Part shown: in pieces, positions 13,456 through 39,178 of the stretch
How the letters are laid out: every line of letters begins with the position of its first letter
Numbering within the stretch: the stretch's first letter is position 1
From: an uncultured Clostridia bacterium
Lineage (GTDB): Bacteria > Bacillota > Clostridia > Oscillospirales > Acutalibacteraceae
NCBI GenBank assembly: GCA_947585965.1
Contig: CANPXK010000004.1
Span: 1-64,000, forward strand
Length of the DNA: 64,000 bases
Direction: 5' to 3'
The notes under the pieces: generated by a model
What the model was told of the DNA's origin: nothing
Seen by the model: the letters and a program-made list of their open reading frames with translations, nothing else
Database searches by the model: none
Position numbers and translations under genes: made by a program

Positions 13456-14019
13456 ATGTCGGCGGTATCGGCGGCGATAATCGGTGCGGCTCTTGCCATG
13501 GATGCCTTTGCCGTGTCGTTTGTGTGCGGCTCCTCGGACAGAACAAAACGGCTGAGGTGTGCCTTTATTACGGCTGCGGCATTTGGTATCTTTCAGATGA
13601 TTATGCCGATACTCGGCTGGAGCGTTGGAAAGGTCGGAAGCAAGGCGATTGAGGGCTTTGATCATATCATAGCCTTTGGTATATTGGTATTCCTCGGAGT
13701 AAAAATGATTATCGACAGCTTCGGAAATATTATGGACAAAAAATCGGATGTCTTTGATCTGCGTTCGCTTATAATTATGGCTCTTGCAACAAGTATTGAT
13801 GCCCTTACGGTTGGAATTGTACTTCCGTCTGCTGTAGGGGCGGAGACCTTTACTTCACTTATTATGTCTGTTTCGATAATCGGTGCTGTAACATTCATAC
13901 TTTGCTTTATCGGATATCAGCTTGGAAGACGAATAAGCAATCTCAACCCGAGGATTACTCAGATAATCGGAGGAATAGTTCTTATAGCACTCGGAATAAA
14001 ATCCCTAATAACAGGTTAG
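13456..14019 (+). CDS. mntP: Manganese efflux pump MntP
   Basis: ALAMDAFAVSF...ATSIDALTVGI duplicated MntP motif. Confidence 0.9.
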   Translation: MSAVSAAIIGAALAMDAFAVSFVCGSSDRTKRLRCAFITAAAFGIFQMIMPILGWSVGKVGSKAIEGFDHIIAFGILVFLGVKMIIDSFGNIMDKKSDVFDLRSLIIMALATSIDALTVGIVLPSAVGAETFTSLIMSVSIIGAVTFILCFIGYQLGRRISNLNPRITQIIGGIVLIALGIKSLITG

Positions 14020-14021
14020 CA

Positions 14022-14062
14022 AAAAAATCATCTCTGTATATTATGATACAGGGGTGATTTTT
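14022..14062 (+). terminator. Intrinsic terminator overlapping the start of yunB
   Basis: AAATCATCTCTGTAT...ATACAGGGGTGATTTTTT. Confidence 0.7.
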
Positions 14063-14709
14063 TGTCCATAAGACGCAGAGGGAGAAAGGGAAATAAGGCG
14101 GCTAAGGTAATACTCATTATGCTTATCGTTCTGATAATAACCGTAATTTTTCTTGAAATACGCCTTAAGCCTGTTATACGTTCCGTAGCATCAATACAGG
14201 CACAAAGCTTTGCGACTCTTACAATCAGTGAAACCGTTACCGATATTCTTGACGAAATGAATATAAGCGGGGAAGAGCTTGAAACCGTGACAGCCTCATC
14301 TGACGGGACTATTGCTTCAATAAGTACAAATACTGTTGTTACCAACAGGCTAAAAAATCTTATTACAACACGAACTCAGGAGGCACTTTCAAATATCCAA
14401 AGCAAAAGAATTGATGTGCCGATAGGTACGATCCTCGGCGGAGAGCTTTTTAACGGTGTCGGACCGGCAATACCCGTATATATTTCCATGTCGGGAACGG
14501 TAAACAGTGATTTTGAGGAAAAATTTGAGAGCGGGGGCATAAATCAGACGGTACATAAGCTGTCGGTAAAAATATCTGCGGAAATAAATATAATAATGCC
14601 TATGACATCATGTACGGAAAGAGTAGAAACCACCGTACTTGTAGGGGAAACCGTAATTGTAGGGGAGACTCCGGACGGCCTGCTCATGCATGAACAGACA
14701 ATATCGTGA
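14062..14709 (+). CDS. yunB: Sporulation protein YunB
   Basis: Single N-terminal TM, IPIGTILGGELFNGVGPAIPV motif. Confidence 0.85.
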   Translation: MSIRRRGRKGNKAAKVILIMLIVLIITVIFLEIRLKPVIRSVASIQAQSFATLTISETVTDILDEMNISGEELETVTASSDGTIASISTNTVVTNRLKNLITTRTQEALSNIQSKRIDVPIGTILGGELFNGVGPAIPVYISMSGTVNSDFEEKFESGGINQTVHKLSVKISAEINIIMPMTSCTERVETTVLVGETVIVGETPDGLLMHEQTIS

Positions 14710-31305: not shown

Positions 31306-32529
31306 ATGTCTTTTTTTAGGAACAAAATAGTAATTGCAGTTATTATGCTGCTTGCGGCTCTCGGATTGGGTATCGGAGGATTTACCGAGCTTTCAAAGGT
31401 AAGCGGAGAAATAAAGAATTACTACAGTATGCCTGAGTCCGAGATTAAATCGGGAACATTGGTTGAATTTGATATCACAGAGGAAAACTACATCGGTCAG
31501 TTTGGTTACAGGGATAATGAGAAGTATTATTTCGTATGGACGAATTCCAGAAAAATTCTTACGTTCAAGACAGAGGATAAAGATCAGAAGAATTTACTTC
31601 TTCAGTTAGAGCAGGGAAAAACCGGAAGTATTTCCTTGACGGGTCAGGTATCGCCGCTTGCCGATGATGAAAAAGACGTTGCCATTGATATGCTCAAGGA
31701 TACGGGCTTTTTTGATGATATGACCGCACGTCAGTATCTTATGCCGTATAAAATCGGTAATTATAATAAAAGTCTCCCATACATATTGCTTGGTATAAGC
31801 GGAGGGTGTCTGCTTATAGGAATCATACTGTTTATACCTTTCGGAAGAAAGAATAACAGCTCTTCGGGCGGTTCAAACAGCTATTATAACGACATAAACA
31901 GACCTTATACCGGTATGAATAACGGTTATAATGATCCCAACCAGCCGTATGGCGGAACAGGCGGTTATAATGATCCGAATCAACCGTATGGCGGAACAGG
32001 CGGTTATAATGATCCCAACCAACCGTATGGCGGAACAGGCGGTTATAATGATCCGAATCAGCCGTATGGAGGAACAGGCGGTTATAATGCTCCGAATCAA
32101 CCGTATGGAGGAACAGGCGGTTATAATGATCCAAGTCAACCGTATGGCGGCACAGGTAGCTACGGAAACAATAACAGTACCTATGGCGGCACAGGCAGCT
32201 ACGGTAACAGCAATAGTACCTACGGCGGCACAGGCGGTTACGGTAACAGCAATAGTACTTATAGCGGCACGGGCAGCTACGGTAACAGCAATAATACTTA
32301 CAGCGGCACAGGCGGTTACGGTAACAGCAATAATACTTACGGCGGCACAGGCAGTTACGGTAACAGCAATAATACTTATGGCGGCACAGGCAGTTACGGT
32401 AACAGCAATAATACTTATGGCGGCACGGGTGGTTACGGCAACAATACATCCGGAGCAGGCAATAATCAGGATAGGGAAAATAAAGATGATGACAATAATA
32501 ACCAATTCCCGTTTATAAAAACATTCTAA
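31306..32529 (+). CDS. Membrane protein with tandem 13-aa Gly/Tyr/Asn repeats
   Basis: N-terminal and mid TM; NDPNQPYGGTGGY x6 followed by GNSNNTYGGTGSY-type repeats. Confidence 0.8.
   Translation: MSFFRNKIVIAVIMLLAALGLGIGGFTELSKVSGEIKNYYSMPESEIKSGTLVEFDITEENYIGQFGYRDNEKYYFVWTNSRKILTFKTEDKDQKNLLLQLEQGKTGSISLTGQVSPLADDEKDVAIDMLKDTGFFDDMTARQYLMPYKIGNYNKSLPYILLGISGGCLLIGIILFIPFGRKNNSSSGGSNSYYNDINRPYTGMNNGYNDPNQPYGGTGGYNDPNQPYGGTGGYNDPNQPYGGTGGYNDPNQPYGGTGGYNAPNQPYGGTGGYNDPSQPYGGTGSYGNNNSTYGGTGSYGNSNSTYGGTGGYGNSNSTYSGTGSYGNSNNTYSGTGGYGNSNNTYGGTGSYGNSNNTYGGTGSYGNSNNTYGGTGGYGNNTSGAGNNQDRENKDDDNNNQFPFIKTF
31930..32448. repeat. Tandem 39-bp repeats in two sub-families
   Basis: aatgatcccaaccagccgtatggcggaacaggcggttat (39 bp) then ggtaacagcaataatacttatggcggcacaggcagttac (39 bp). 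Confidence 0.9.
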
Positions 32530-33277: not shown

Positions 33278-33556
33278 TTACAGATTACTTTTCAGGCATG
33301 AGCCGCATATTATTTCGTCCTTGGAAATAGGCTTTCCGCAAAAGATACAACGCTCACTTTCGGGCGAATTTTTGCAGGATTTCTCCGATATTTTTTGTCT
33401 GAAGCTTTTGTTTTGTTTTTGCAGCTTGTCAATTATCTGTTCGTATTTGGAAAGACGGCTGCTCTGCAATACGCTTAAGATTATCATAAGGAGGAATCCG
33501 CCTGCAACAAAGCCGGCTATAAAAAACAGAAAATTATCCAATTTCTTATGTTTCAC
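33278..33556 (-). CDS. Small membrane protein with C-terminal zinc ribbon
   Basis: TM segment then CIFCGKPISKDEIICGSC. Confidence 0.6.
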   Translation of the reverse strand: MKHKKLDNFLFFIAGFVAGGFLLMIILSVLQSSRLSKYEQIIDKLQKQNKSFRQKISEKSCKNSPESERCIFCGKPISKDEIICGSCLKSNL

Positions 33557-34257
33557 TCCGTTCCTTTGGTCGGTTCTGCGGACACACCGTTTGCTGCTTC
33601 CGATACAGTGTCGGTAGCGGAAATTTCGCTTTCCGTTTTTTCCGATTCAACAGGCAGATCCGTTGATATGTCCGTTATGTCCGAACTGACATCCTCGGAC
33701 TCCGATAAAACAGTCTGAGTTTCCTCCTCCGCGGTTGTCTGCACTGAGGTTTCCTCTTTAGCAGCGGATTCTTCCCGTTTAGCGGAGGATTCTTCCGGTT
33801 TATCGGATTTATCCGCATCCTCTGAGCTTTCCGTTTTTGCGGAAGTTGTCGGCTCGGGGGTATTTTTTTTCGGGACGGTATAGTCCTTTGGCGGGATACG
33901 GAGTATCGCTCCGACTTGTATATTGTCTGTATTTTCAATATTATTGTATGCAGCCAATGCCTCCAAAGAGACGTTAAATTTTTCGGCTATGTATGAAAGA
34001 GTATCGCCGCTTTTAACCTGATATACCGTGTTAGGCTTTTCGGTTACGATGTGGGGATCTTCCTGCGGTTGGGGGGCAGGATCTGTACCGGTTGGTTTAG
34101 CTGGAATTTCAATACTCCATGTTGATGTGAGTTTGACTTCCTTTGAATACTTTGCATAGGTTGTACTAAGAGATACTAAAGAGATAATGGTCAAAAGGGA
34201 GAATACTATGACAAGAATTCCGGCTCTCTTATTGAAAAAACTTGTAAATCTTTTCAC
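33553..34257 (-). CDS. LysM-domain exported protein with SipW-type leader
   Basis: TYAKYSKEV leader; YQVKSGDTLSYIAEKFNVSLEALAAYNNI LysM. Confidence 0.8.
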   Translation of the reverse strand: MKRFTSFFNKRAGILVIVFSLLTIISLVSLSTTYAKYSKEVKLTSTWSIEIPAKPTGTDPAPQPQEDPHIVTEKPNTVYQVKSGDTLSYIAEKFNVSLEALAAYNNIENTDNIQVGAILRIPPKDYTVPKKNTPEPTTSAKTESSEDADKSDKPEESSAKREESAAKEETSVQTTAEEETQTVLSESEDVSSDITDISTDLPVESEKTESEISATDTVSEAANGVSAEPTKGTE

Positions 34258-34259
34258 TA

Positions 34260-35081
34260 TTAAGTACCTCCTTTGGATTGATTGGCAGTTACAGTAATAG
34301 AGGGGTCATTCTTCGGCTGTCTTAACAGAGCAGTCTTAGTAGGCGTATATCCTGTTACATCAAATACTATGGCACAGGTGTGATTTTCGGCTATTGAACC
34401 TGTTTTTAAGGAAATTGCATCGCTGTTTCGTAAAAGAAAACTCATGGGAAAAGACATTTCCACGTCATATCCACTCACAACATCACCCATTGGCATTTCA
34501 TACGGAATATCACCAGCGACAGTTGACATATTCAGTTCGTTAGTAAGTTCTGTTTTCTTCTCACCGTCCACATACAAATATACCTTGAGTTCATCTTTCA
34601 TAAGTGATTTCAGTGCATTTAAGGTATAATCTCCCCAATACGATTCAGACATGTCTACTACAAACTCACAGCGGAATGTCAGATCGCAGTTAATATCAAC
34701 CTCGGAAATATTTCCGTTCACATCTTTATTGCTGACTGTAAAGGCACAGGCTAAAAGTTGGTTATCATTCAAGCCGGTGAGGTGTTCATTTTTGTATGCT
34801 TCTGTTTCCTCCGGTGTCATTTGTTTTGCTTCAAACGCAAATTGTGCCGCCTGAATCGAAAGAGGGGGAATTTCTACCGTTGGAGATATATATTTAGCAT
34901 AAGTCCCTACCGCAGACGTCATAAGAGCGGCAAATACAAGAGCAAAGCAAGTTAATGCCCTCAGTGATTTCCTCTTTTCCGGCTTTTTTAAATACTTAGG
35001 ACGGTATCGCCGAAAAAGTTTTGTCGGTTTTATATCCGGCTCTTCGGTCTGAACAGCCTTTTTTTCATTGTACTCTATCAT
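34260..35081 (-). CDS. SipW-dependent-type exported protein (TasA/camelysin-like)
   Basis: FAALMTSAVGTYAKYISPT leader typical of SipW substrates. Confidence 0.6.
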   Translation of the reverse strand: MIEYNEKKAVQTEEPDIKPTKLFRRYRPKYLKKPEKRKSLRALTCFALVFAALMTSAVGTYAKYISPTVEIPPLSIQAAQFAFEAKQMTPEETEAYKNEHLTGLNDNQLLACAFTVSNKDVNGNISEVDINCDLTFRCEFVVDMSESYWGDYTLNALKSLMKDELKVYLYVDGEKKTELTNELNMSTVAGDIPYEMPMGDVVSGYDVEMSFPMSFLLRNSDAISLKTGSIAENHTCAIVFDVTGYTPTKTALLRQPKNDPSITVTANQSKGGT

Positions 35082-35601
35082 GCGTTTTGCCCACCTTTCG
35101 TATTAAATAACCGGGAAGCAGAATAAAAACTCCGACGGCAAGCAGGATCGTGCATATTCCCGGAGGAGTGCGGAGCCAATACAGAAAGCTCCCCACGCCC
35201 GGCAGAACCGTCCGTACCTTTCCCCGGATCTGTTCGGGGGAAAAGGGAGCGTCCTCGGTATTGTTTGCATCACCCTTTGTGACGGCTTCTTTATCCGTAA
35301 CGGAGACAAGGCGGTGTGTTATAAGACTTCCGTCATCATCCTGATATATCACGATATCTCCCGGTGTGTAGCTGTCCTGTTTTTGTGTTATGAGCAGTGA
35401 GCCGACGGGCAGAGTCGGTTCCATGCTGCCGGAGAGTACCGTGGCATTTCCCCAGCCGAACACGGTCGGCAGCGGATTGCCGGCAATTCGTGATATTGTC
35501 ATATATCCCCAAAGCACAGCCGCTAAAAGTATCAAAACAGTAACAGCCGCCGTAATGACCCGGCTCTTATCCTTAAATAAATTCTTCATCTTCATCATCA
35601 C
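35065..35601 (-). CDS. Signal peptidase I, SipW type
   Basis: VLSGSMEPTLPVGSLLI...GDIVIYQDDDGSLITHRLV...KGDANNTED. Confidence 0.9.
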   Translation of the reverse strand: MMMKMKNLFKDKSRVITAAVTVLILLAAVLWGYMTISRIAGNPLPTVFGWGNATVLSGSMEPTLPVGSLLITQKQDSYTPGDIVIYQDDDGSLITHRLVSVTDKEAVTKGDANNTEDAPFSPEQIRGKVRTVLPGVGSFLYWLRTPPGICTILLAVGVFILLPGYLIRKVGKTHDRVQ

Positions 35602-36400
35602 GCTTGTGTCTGAGAAGAAGTGTCAGACCGAGTGCCGCAGCAGAGCAAAGCTCCAAAGCTATAAGCGGTACAACAGTGTTGTTGTCGCCGGTCTGCGGAG
35701 GATTCTGTGAGCCGCTCGGTTTAACCGGATTTGTCGGATTGCCCGGATTATCGGGTTGATCGGGTCCTACAGCCTCTCCGCTCTGTTCGGCGGAGCAGCT
35801 TATTTTAAGAATATACTCCATACTCTCTCCGTAGCCCTCTGCCGCTTGGGCGGCTTTTATTCCTATGGCGGTGTCACGTTCGTCATCAACATCGCCGTCC
35901 CACCGCCATTCGAGAGTATAATTATTATCCGATTCATAGTTCAGCTTTGATAAAAAATCAAGCCCCGAAAGCTCGACCCACTCGTCATCACCGCCGACAA
36001 TGTAGCCGTCATTGTTTTTAAGTCTGTATTCAAAGGGAATGATATATTCGTTCTCCTCCGAAGCATTTGTTTCTATGCTGAAAGAAAAATCGCAGTCTAT
36101 CGGAAAACGTGCCGTATTTTCAACGGAAAACGAATAGCTGCCCTTGCTGTATGGGGCAACGATCGCTCTGCCGCCGAACTCATCGTTTGCAAATATGTTA
36201 ACTTCGTTTGTTTCCGACCAGTCCTTTCCGTTTTCGTCACGTACTATAAGGAAGTCGTCGTTTGCGGAGTCGGGGTCTGCCTTGGCATAGGTTATCTGAG
36301 GTGAGGTCAGAAAAAGACTTGTCCCCAACAGAACCGTCAGGGAAGCCGCCATACATATCGGAAACGGGCGGGTATTTTTCGGGTCTGTACTCATTTCCAT
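35573..36400 (-). CDS. Cell-wall-anchored surface protein (PPQTG sorting signal)
   Basis: Signal peptide; C-terminal NPPQTGDNN + TM + RHKRDDEDEE tail. Confidence 0.75.
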   Translation of the reverse strand: MEMSTDPKNTRPFPICMAASLTVLLGTSLFLTSPQITYAKADPDSANDDFLIVRDENGKDWSETNEVNIFANDEFGGRAIVAPYSKGSYSFSVENTARFPIDCDFSFSIETNASEENEYIIPFEYRLKNNDGYIVGGDDEWVELSGLDFLSKLNYESDNNYTLEWRWDGDVDDERDTAIGIKAAQAAEGYGESMEYILKISCSAEQSGEAVGPDQPDNPGNPTNPVKPSGSQNPPQTGDNNTVVPLIALELCSAAALGLTLLLRHKRDDEDEEFI

Positions 36401-36445
36401 ATTGCATACCTCTTTTCATTTTATCTTTTTTCAACTTTTAAAGCC

Positions 36446-36478
36446 ACAGCCCGCCATCAGTATGCGGCGGGCTGTGCC
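36446..36478 (-). terminator. Intercistronic hairpin (attenuator/stabiliser)
   Basis: ACAGCCCGCC...GGCGGGCTGT perfect stem. Confidence 0.6.
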
Positions 36479-36559
36479 GTTAAAAGCTGAACCGTCCGGG
36501 GAAACCCCGGCCGACTGCCTTACTCCACGTTCGGGCAGTCAGCTTATATTTTTTCAAAT

Positions 36560-37189
36560 TTATTCACCAGCTTCAGCTACATGTTCTGCCTGTTCAGCTT
36601 TCAGTGTCAAACTATTAAAGTTGATTGGTGTACCTGCCAACTCTGTATCCTTAGTAGCATTCGAGCCATCAGCACCAAATTCCCAGACATATGCTACATA
36701 TACTGTTTTTGAAGACTGAGGAGCAACCTCTACACCATTAAGACCGCTAAGATCTCCGGTTATTTCATTTTTAGTTTTCGGTGCGGAATCACTTTTTTCA
36801 AATACTTTAAGGGAAAGATTACTACCGCTTACATCAGTAGCTCCAGAACCTTCCGTAACAGTTATTTTTGCAGTAACTTCACTATTGTTTGTTATTTTTA
36901 TTGGCTCATAAGCCCATGTTCCGGGTGCGGGCTTATCAGGCTTCGCAGCAGTTGATCCTTCAGCACATGACTTTATGTCATCAAATGCAATAGTACCAAT
37001 CTGTGCTGAAGCCCAAGGTGAATCATTTAATTGAACATCCCATGTAGCTGCTGTGATAGTTGCCTGAGCCGTTTTGTCTTCTGACGTATACTTAGCCAAA
37101 GTGCCGCCGAGTACGCAGGTCATGAGCATTGTGCCGCCGAATATGCAAGCGGCAGTCTTAAGAATACCGTTCTTTTTTGTTTTTTCCAT
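36560..37189 (-). CDS. TasA/camelysin-like SipW-dependent surface fibre protein
   Basis: GGTLAKYTSEDKTAQATITAATWDVQLND. Confidence 0.7.
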   Translation of the reverse strand: MEKTKKNGILKTAACIFGGTMLMTCVLGGTLAKYTSEDKTAQATITAATWDVQLNDSPWASAQIGTIAFDDIKSCAEGSTAAKPDKPAPGTWAYEPIKITNNSEVTAKITVTEGSGATDVSGSNLSLKVFEKSDSAPKTKNEITGDLSGLNGVEVAPQSSKTVYVAYVWEFGADGSNATKDTELAGTPINFNSLTLKAEQAEHVAEAGE

Positions 37190-37232
37190 TGTAAAAACCT
37201 CCTGTAATATGTTATAATAATGTATGTAATTC

Positions 37233-37258
37233 CGTCTGCCGAGTTGTCAGCAGACGGT
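37233..37258 (-). other. Intercistronic hairpin between sipW and the tasA-like gene
   Basis: CCGTCTGC-10 nt-GCAGACGG perfect 8-bp inverted repeat. Confidence 0.6.
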
Positions 37259-37292
37259 AACTACCGGATTTAACAGCACCCGACCGCCGGAT

Positions 37293-37943
37293 TTAATCAT
37301 CTGTATTTTTTCCCGCTTTCTTTGTCGCAAGATATCTGTATCTGTTCCTGCGGGATCTGATTTTCGACGGAACAGTGAAAATAAGATATATAACAAGAAT
37401 CGGGAGCAATACACATAAAATCATACCGATAGGTGTCTGTATAAACAACAACGCATTTCCCATGCCTGCAAAATGCGTGCTGTAAACACCGAGTATCTGC
37501 TCTGCTTTGACAGTATCCCTGTCCGGGGTGTTGTTGGCATCGCCCTGTGTGGTGTACACGGTTTTTCCGTCTTCCTTGGAAACCTTTACGATACGGTGTG
37601 TTACATAAACATCACCGCTGCGGTAACAAATAACCGTGCCTTTTTCATATTTATCGTTTTCCGATGTGTTGCGGATAAGTATGAGGTCGTTCTGTTCAAA
37701 GGACGGCGACATACTGCCCGATTCAACTATCAGCGGAGTTACGCCGAAACAACTCGGCGGCACATCAGGGTTGATAAGAGAACTTATAAGAAGTATAGAG
37801 GTAATAAGAAAAGCGGGGAACAACAATACACAAAGAATTATTCCTATAATGTTGGCAATGCCGAGCCTTGATTTGTGCCGTGCGACACGACTCTGCGGCA
37901 CGTCCGCCGGAGCTGCTTCATTGTTTACTGTTTCCGGTTCCAT
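37293..37943 (-). CDS. sipW: Signal peptidase I, SipW type
   Basis: VESGSMSPSFEQNDLILIRN...GTVICYRSGDVYVTHRIV...QGDANNTPD. Confidence 0.88.
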   Translation of the reverse strand: MEPETVNNEAAPADVPQSRVARHKSRLGIANIIGIILCVLLFPAFLITSILLISSLINPDVPPSCFGVTPLIVESGSMSPSFEQNDLILIRNTSENDKYEKGTVICYRSGDVYVTHRIVKVSKEDGKTVYTTQGDANNTPDRDTVKAEQILGVYSTHFAGMGNALLFIQTPIGMILCVLLPILVIYLIFTVPSKIRSRRNRYRYLATKKAGKNTDD

Positions 37944-38016: not shown

Positions 38017-38306
38017 ACATAATCCGCATTATGTTGCATTGAAAAATTAAAATAAATGCACATATGATAACATGATAGCCCTAAAAAGAAAAACAGACAT
38101 GAAAATCAGACCTCCGTCTTATCCGAAAAAAGAAAAAAGTTGAGGGAGGTTTTGTTTTCATGCCCGAAAATAAAATTTTTTTAAAAATTTCAATAATTTC
38201 ATTAAAAAAGGTGTTGACATTTTAGAATAACGGTGATATAATTATGTACATCGAAGCAAGATAAGATTGCTTATGAAATATGTTTTCAACATAATGCGGA
38301 TTATGT
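38017..38306. promoter_or_regulatory. Invertible DNA segment (phase-variation switch): 20-bp inverted repeats flanking 250 bp
   Basis: ACATAATCCGCATTATGTTG (38017-38036) and exact reverse complement CAACATAATGCGGATTATGT (38287-38306), beside a tyrosine recombinase. Confidence 0.8.
38214..38242 (+). promoter_or_regulatory. Consensus sigma-A promoter inside the invertible segment
   Basis: TTGACA-17 nt-TATAAT. Confidence 0.85.
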
Positions 38307-38334
38307 CACCGGTTGATAATCGGTGGCATTTTTT
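38307..38334 (+). terminator. Intrinsic terminator just outside the switch
   Basis: CACCG...CGGTG GCATTTTTT. Confidence 0.6.
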
Positions 38335-39178
38335 ATAGTATTAATCGCATATTTTCCATTTGACGGCGGTGCTCTGCACCCGTGGAAATGATATAAATTC
38401 TTGTTGTTTCTATGCTGCTGTGACCAAGAATGTCGGCAAGCTTTGCAATATCTTTCTCAATATTGTAAAATACCCGTGCGAAAAGATGCCTGAGGTTGTG
38501 AGGGAACACCTTTGACGGACTTACATTCGCTTCTTTGCAAAGAGACTTCATTTCTCTCCATATTGCAGACCTGCTGAGCGGCTTTCCTTTTCTTGTTGTA
38601 AACACTGCCCCGGATTTTATTTTATGATCCGATATATAGCGGAGCAGTTTTTTCCGCAGACCTTTCACAAGAAATACCGTCCTTGTTTTGCCCTTGCAGG
38701 AAACAACCGCTTCGCCGTTTTTGACAGCCTCTACACTGATATATTGCAGCTCACTTACACGTATGCCGGTGCTGCAAATGGTCTGCAAAATCAGATACAG
38801 CCGCTCATTATGCTTCCTTTGTGCCGTCAGACACAACCGCTCATATTCCTCTTGCGTAAGCTCCTTTTCCTCCGGACAGTAAACCTTACGCTGAACCTTA
38901 ATTGTTTTTACCTTAAGATCGTGTCTGCCGATAAATGCAAACAGACCGTTCACCGCCGCAAGCATGGAATTGACACTGCATACTGTATATCCGTTGTCTA
39001 TCAGCTCCTGCTTATATGCTATAACGGTTTCCTTGGTAATCTCTCCGCCCGAAAGATATTTTGCAAATACCCTGATATCATGAATATACTTGCTGATTGT
39101 TGAAGGGCTTTTTTCTTCTTTTATAAGATAATCCTGAAATTCGGATATAATTTTCTTTGTAATTCTTGCTTTTTTCAT
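38333..39178 (-). CDS. Tyrosine recombinase (XerC/D- or FimB-like), probable invertase for the adjacent switch
   Basis: SAM-like N-domain; catalytic R (STGIRVSEL), HNLRHLFAR, LGHSSIETTRIY. Confidence 0.9.
   Translation of the reverse strand: MKKARITKKIISEFQDYLIKEEKSPSTISKYIHDIRVFAKYLSGGEITKETVIAYKQELIDNGYTVCSVNSMLAAVNGLFAFIGRHDLKVKTIKVQRKVYCPEEKELTQEEYERLCLTAQRKHNERLYLILQTICSTGIRVSELQYISVEAVKNGEAVVSCKGKTRTVFLVKGLRKKLLRYISDHKIKSGAVFTTRKGKPLSRSAIWREMKSLCKEANVSPSKVFPHNLRHLFARVFYNIEKDIAKLADILGHSSIETTRIYIISTGAEHRRQMENMRLIL

Follow-up and report, generated by a model that had tools for sequence, protein, structure and literature searches.

A very probably invertible promoter segment ahead of a SipW-type surface operon, and its relatives in gut Clostridia

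Does the 250-bp segment that lies between two inverted repeats ahead of a SipW-type operon control that operon by inversion, and in which state was it assembled? We addressed this question in a 64-kb stretch of DNA (referred to here as the window) and in homologous loci from related genomes. The original prediction was that of an invertible promoter, currently OFF. It is highly likely that the segment switches transcription between two states and that the recombinase encoded next to it flips it at two ACATAAT-CCGC-ATTATGT sites. This reading builds on the repeats, the promoter, a sink terminator, the catalytic residues of the recombinase, the operon itself, and the recurrence of the arrangement in relatives, all of which are read directly from sequence (Table 1).

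Table 1. Positions, in the window, of the putative switch, the recombinase gene, and the target operon
Feature	Position	Strand	Remarks
92-aa membrane protein, operon end	33278..33556	-	C-terminal CxxC pairs
LysM-domain protein	33553..34257	-	SipW-type N-terminus; PF01476 E 4.8e-15
Second secreted protein, candidate fibre/accessory subunit	34260..35081	-	SipW-type N-terminus ..GTYAKY; homologue in L081
sipW2, second SipW-type signal peptidase	35065..35601	-	TIGR02228 83.9 bits, cut-off 51.85
Secreted protein, PPQTG sortase-type C-terminus	35573..36400	-	TIGR01167 17.3 bits, cut-off 15.9
tasA1, secreted protein, predicted beta-sandwich	36560..37189	-	SipW-type signal peptide region ..GGTLAKY
sipW1, SipW/archaeal-type signal peptidase I, first operon gene	37293..37943	-	TIGR02228 90.8 bits, cut-off 51.85
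Left inverted repeat, putative recombination site	38017..38036	+	core ACATAAT-CCGC-ATTATGT, palindromic around 4-nt centre
Putative invertible segment, 250 bp	38037..38286		enclosed by both repeats
Internal hairpin, predicted terminator facing operon in OFF	38098..38162	-	-24.7 kcal/mol; T-rich run 38082-38097
Extended -10 sigma-70 promoter, TTGACA-17-TATAAT	38214..38242	+	points away from operon (OFF)
Right inverted repeat, putative recombination site	38287..38306	-	same centre inverted, GCGG on + strand
Sink terminator for OFF-state transcript	38303..38335	+	between right repeat and recombinase 3' end
Tyrosine recombinase, presumed invertase, 281 aa	38333..39178	-	catalytic motifs R, K, H-R, H, Y

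The two arms of the repeat are 20 nt long, 100% complementary, and 250 nt apart, and the core of each is palindromic around a 4-nt centre, as had been described. The pair is unique across the 2.87-Mb genome. Among perfect inverted repeats of 18 bp or more whose arms lie 50 to 1000 bp apart, it is the only one in the window, and order-1 random sequences with the same dinucleotide make-up yielded no perfect inverted repeats of at least 16 bp. A second perfect inverted repeat, of 16 bp (ATGGACAAAAAATC..), lies at 13730-13745 and 14056-14071, with its arms 310 bp apart; it exceeds chance expectation in the window.

The promoter between the repeats is intergenic, as is typical of invertons. Its -35 element is TTGACA at 38214-38219, its spacer is 17 nt, and its -10 element is TATAAT at 38237-38242, with TG ahead of the -10. 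This is the sole sigma-70 promoter with a 12/12 consensus match in the 64-kb window, and the claim of a perfect promoter inside the segment was therefore correct. It had further been proposed that the promoter faces right, away from the operon and into a terminator starting at about 38307. The orientation was confirmed, but the terminator stem begins at 38303; it runs to 38329, is followed by a T tail, and takes in the outer 4 nt of the right repeat. At 39 of 57 related loci, the 12 nt leading up to the recombinase stop codon include at least 6 T when read toward it, which is consistent with a predicted sink terminator for the OFF transcript.

The segment also contains a hairpin (38098-38162) that was absent from its earlier description. 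This hairpin folds at -24.7 kcal/mol, compared with a mean of -10.0 kcal/mol for shuffled sequences, and among 9 homologous hairpins, 6 of 17 stem pairs show two-sided compensatory changes. In the window, the 12 nt on the side of the hairpin that faces against the promoter include 9 T and the 12 nt on the opposite side include 1; the averages for 50 family segments were 6.3 and 4.4 of 12 (Wilcoxon P = 0.003), an asymmetry that is weak in distant homologues. A simple scan for short-loop terminators missed this element because its loop is long. We concluded that the segment apparently carries both a promoter and a predicted terminator.

The gene directly beside the segment encodes a tyrosine recombinase, as had been predicted. 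Its product matches PF00589 (E = 2.9e-30; 105.7 bits versus a gathering score of 27.1), and the R-K-HxxR-H-Y residues that characterize the superfamily are intact in the motifs GIRVSEL, CKGKTRT, PHNLRH, LGHSS, and TRIY. Among solved structures, the nearest enzymes by sequence are of the XerA/XerC/XerD type. Scores for the Fim-type DNA invertase models were far below their cut-offs (NF007370, 37.1 versus 221 bits; NF007371, 30.4 versus 222 bits). Hence, the description "fim-like" suits the logic of the switch but not the enzyme. The same genome (G000) encodes three further paralogues of the recombinase, 52-64% identical. One of these (L079, contig C37) has a matched site pair with a different centre, another (L078, C114) has a single site near a contig end, and behind the third (L080, C71) there is a run of secreted-protein genes.

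The operon runs leftward from 37943, in agreement with the original prediction, and contains all the genes that had been listed (sipW-tasA-PPQTG-sipW-LysM); that list left out the second secreted-protein gene (34260-35081) and the small ORF at 33278-33556. The Bacillus SipW equivalog model, NF046067, gave 97.9 bits for sipW1 and 82.3 bits for sipW2, versus a cut-off of 190. An AKY motif closes the signal-peptide region in tasA1, the second secreted protein, and the LysM protein. Strong minus-strand folds occur in both gaps that border tasA1 (36401-36559, 159 nt, -68.1 kcal/mol, with a long near-perfect stem; 37190-37292, 103 nt, -31.7 kcal/mol), and no T-run follows the main stems. As candidate elements for mRNA stabilisation or processing, these gaps could increase the dosage of tasA1. 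Farther left, the C-terminal half of ORF 31306-32529 is a run of YGGTGGYND/PNQP-type repeats, where long ORFs are open on both strands.

An assignment of tasA1 to TasA by sequence was considered and rejected. There was no Pfam match and no PDB match up to an E value of 10, the score for TIGR04088 was 13.2 bits versus a cut-off of 19, and none of the family models, including those for TasA/camelysin, recognised the protein. One homologue matched the BsaA family TIGR04090 (E = 0.0032). We also compared predicted structural models with known structures. The second, an AlphaFold model with a pLDDT of 78.5 and a well-scored domain that starts at about residue 41, retrieved the Pyrobaculum bundling pilus 7ueg at rank 1 (E = 1.3e-4) and the TasA fibre 8aur at rank 5 (E = 3.3e-3), both with TM scores of only 0.3-0.4 and with other beta-sandwich proteins nearby; the first model aligned with 8aur at a TM score of 0.41. 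The Pyrobaculum pilus has been called a TasA-like system (PMC9674648). The term "TasA-like" thus stands with regard to SipW linkage, the signal peptide, and a weak fold similarity, and falls with regard to any family model. We concluded that tasA1 is a SipW-dependent and probably TasA-like secreted protein, with weak similarity of the modelled fold as the basis for TasA membership, and that the secreted proteins of the operon are candidates for SipW-type fibre proteins.

We looked for the recombinase in relatives and found it in 12 of 64 genomes of the window's genus (E <= 1e-60) and in 108 of 396 genomes of the order (E <= 1e-75). A search for the exact 20-mer in species genomes returned 18 contigs, mainly from rabbit-gut Clostridia MAGs; most of these carried the recombinase, and many had a second, inverted copy 200-300 bp away. 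The first-round locus set consisted of 82 loci around recombinase matches and one stray site. At most loci, an ACATAAT-nnnn-ATTATGT site lies a few to about 60 bp past the recombinase stop codon, and its inverted partner is about 244 bp away.

Partner sites in the recombinase flanks were sought by their arms alone, whatever the 4-nt centre, and 57 site pairs were obtained. The same centre was present in inverted orientation in 54 of the 57 pairs, and there were no direct repeats; in the three exceptional pairs, the centres differ by a single base. When partners were shuffled, matching centres averaged 3.6 (maximum, 11). There are 33 different centres among the pairs, none of them palindromic. 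Variation of the centre between loci combined with identity within a pair is as expected if strand exchange by a tyrosine recombinase requires identical overlaps, and inversion between such sites calls for asymmetric centres. Loci within the window's genome carry different centres. The idea that the centre serves as a bar code for each locus and so keeps paralogous switches from cross-talk was rejected as a general rule, since TGGT is found at all three loci of one genome (G158) and TGTC is found twice in another (G026). A lone perfect palindromic site with the centre GCCG/CGGC lies downstream of a large ORF for a surface protein, at a distance of about 360 bp (G000:C24:5327-5344; L004, L099). 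We rejected this site as half of a second switch, as no partner with fewer than 7 mismatches lies within 1500 bp.

We scored promoter orientation blind at the 57 loci. The promoter points toward the recombinase (OFF) at 35 loci and toward the target operon (ON) at 15, with 7 unclear; these calls are consensus scores, and several homologues lie near the shuffled null. In homologues, some 45-50 bp typically separate the -10 element from the nearer repeat core, within an overall range of about 36-75 bp. Two SipW operons are found in the ON orientation (L113 and L159), and the closest homologous operons with readable segments (G026 and G021) are both OFF. MAG CANRNZ01 contains two cassettes (L024 and L040) whose recombinase 3' ends are 93% identical and whose segments are 97% identical, yet the segments have opposite orientations relative to the recombinase, indicating that inversion took place after duplication. 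Thus, both orientations are present among homologues, as is characteristic of invertons.

Contigs tend to break at the switch. Ends within 200 bp of the recombinase were found on its 3' (switch) side in 11 of 60 cases versus 1 of 60 on its 5' side (binomial P = 0.006), and within 400 bp, there were 14 versus 2 (P = 0.004). Such an excess is expected of mixed orientations; in some genomes, e.g., G042, the breaks can instead stem from near-identical paralogues (repeat collapse). One contig begins exactly at the repeat, before a sipW-tasA operon, and another contig from the same MAG ends 57 bp into the segment (L030 and L026). Together, the concerted centres, the two orientations among homologues, and the opposed duplicate cassettes strongly support an invertible promoter that is OFF in the assembly, as was originally predicted. 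We concluded that the segment very probably flips, switching surface-fibre genes on and off in individual cells.

We infer recombination by the adjacent enzyme, with ON and OFF expression as follows. In the OFF state, the strong promoter would fire right, and a transcript of about 80 nt would stop at the terminator beside the recombinase gene. The recombinase gene is upstream of the operon and co-directional with it, so the internal hairpin, whose T-run faces the operon in this state, would halt read-through of leaking recombinase transcripts; with a promoter and an opposed predicted terminator in one segment, OFF would also insulate the operon. After inversion, transcription from the promoter would run leftward across the repeat and enter sipW1 and the genes for the secreted proteins, with the internal terminator now facing away from the operon. 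A fraction of cells would then make a SipW-processed surface or matrix fibre.

The position of the recombinase gene, directly upstream of the operon and co-directional with it, would also suit a switch that acts mainly by termination. Here, the recombinase promoter would read the operon, segment orientation would gate the internal terminator (as in CwpV), and the internal promoter would be secondary. The T-run that faces the operon in OFF and the covariation of the hairpin pairs agree with such a scheme. Nevertheless, we regard it as unlikely, given that nothing in the segment is better conserved than its perfect extended -10 promoter, which keeps a conserved distance from one repeat. A formerly invertible switch that has decayed and is now fixed OFF in this lineage is somewhat less likely again. 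Every readable close homologue of the operon is OFF, and the one-base centre mismatch in three family members may lock those; in the window, however, the two sites match perfectly, no operon ORF is disrupted, and the recombinase is complete, with every catalytic motif in place. Finally, each site is itself a palindrome, like many operators, and an integrase-like protein could regulate from such operators without inversion. Regulation from operators would not call for identical asymmetric centres that face opposite ways, which nearly all site pairs have, and this reading is also opposed by the two orientations in relatives and by the duplicated cassettes that differ in orientation. We consider it very improbable.

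The first downstream ORF is co-directional at 44 of 53 loci. SipW-type operons, including distant ones, lie behind the switch at 14 of 57 loci. Within 3 kb of the recombinase, 9 of 46 flanks on the downstream side contain SipW-type genes, compared with 0 of 58 on the upstream side (P = 4e-4), so the association of switch and SipW is not due to chance. The gene order of the window operon recurs after the same switch in G026; in G221 and rabbit-gut MAGs, the switch is followed by part of this arrangement. At L101, L103, L108, L117, L123, and L139, the first downstream gene opens with '(M)A.IIKYEGDN..F.WK.P..DFNT..QLIVH.SQEA.F', and its protein is presumably SPFH/virion-core-like; a helicase-like gene ('HPTGTGKS') is found at the switches L029, L034, and L136. 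Phase-variable loci of the family thus appear to extend beyond surface fibres.

SipW/TasA-type matrix fibres have been studied as regulated biofilm components. In commensal Clostridia, in which phase variation is poorly catalogued, the choice to make a fibre appears to be written in DNA, and the switch design recurs at about fifty related loci. The chances seem evenly balanced that the family is a transferable toggle cassette, made up of a recombinase, a sink terminator, palindromic sites with a free but concerted 4-nt centre, and a promoter with an opposed terminator, that has repeatedly been placed before fibre operons that depend on SipW and before other loci (surface, SPFH-like, and helicase-like); each cell in much of the gut Clostridia would then toss a coin over matrix-fibre production. 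Because the site motif is defined, the switch can be found by sequence alone, and because orientation can be read from existing metagenomes, the frequency of fibre-ON cells in the gut is measurable.

It is well established that invertible promoters occur with tyrosine recombinases. The fimS switch of E. coli, on which FimB/FimE act, likewise has an invertible promoter before a surface-fibre operon and an adjacent tyrosine recombinase; unlike FimB/FimE, the present recombinase is a XerC/D-type enzyme of 281 aa with an N-terminal SAM-like domain. In C. difficile, an invertible promoter sets the gene downstream ON or OFF at pdcB and cmr, and the upstream promoter of pdcB is also orientation sensitive; the recombinase for pdcB is unidentified (PMC9286219). 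The logic is that of the present switch, and the targets differ. The C. difficile cwpV switch has 21-bp inverted repeats 195 bp apart, is acted on by RecV, and contains an orientation-dependent terminator that controls a cell-surface product (PMC2784873). The present switch resembles it in its short inverted repeats, tyrosine recombinase, orientation-dependent terminator (predicted here), and surface product. However, the cwpV promoter is outside the segment and recV is distant, whereas the present segment contains its promoter and adjoins the recombinase gene. The present element therefore appears to use both an internal promoter and an internal terminator, unlike cwpV, which has a terminator without an internal promoter.

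With regard to the target, the sipW-bsaA operon of C. perfringens is similar in that it combines SipW with a secreted, fibre-forming matrix protein and is expressed heterogeneously, ON or OFF (PMC7395162). There, bimodality depends on a two-component system and PilA2, and the term "inversion" is absent from the text of that study; here, the switch would be in the DNA itself. A 2025 survey describes "inverton group 139", with "invertase group 35", as 33 invertons, 32 of them from Clostridia, that adjoin a tyrosine-type recombinase; its examples have repeats of 14-26 bp and spacers of 205-227 bp, and inversion was measured in culture (PMC11892184). Our family is likewise clostridial, with an adjacent tyrosine recombinase and similar sizes, and may be the same group. 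The main text of the survey mentions neither a SipW/TasA operon nor "signal peptidase", and we found no report of an invertible SipW/TasA operon in the open-licence literature. We concluded that this type of clostridial tyrosine-recombinase inverton is already known and that what stands out is its target and its probable double design of promoter and terminator.
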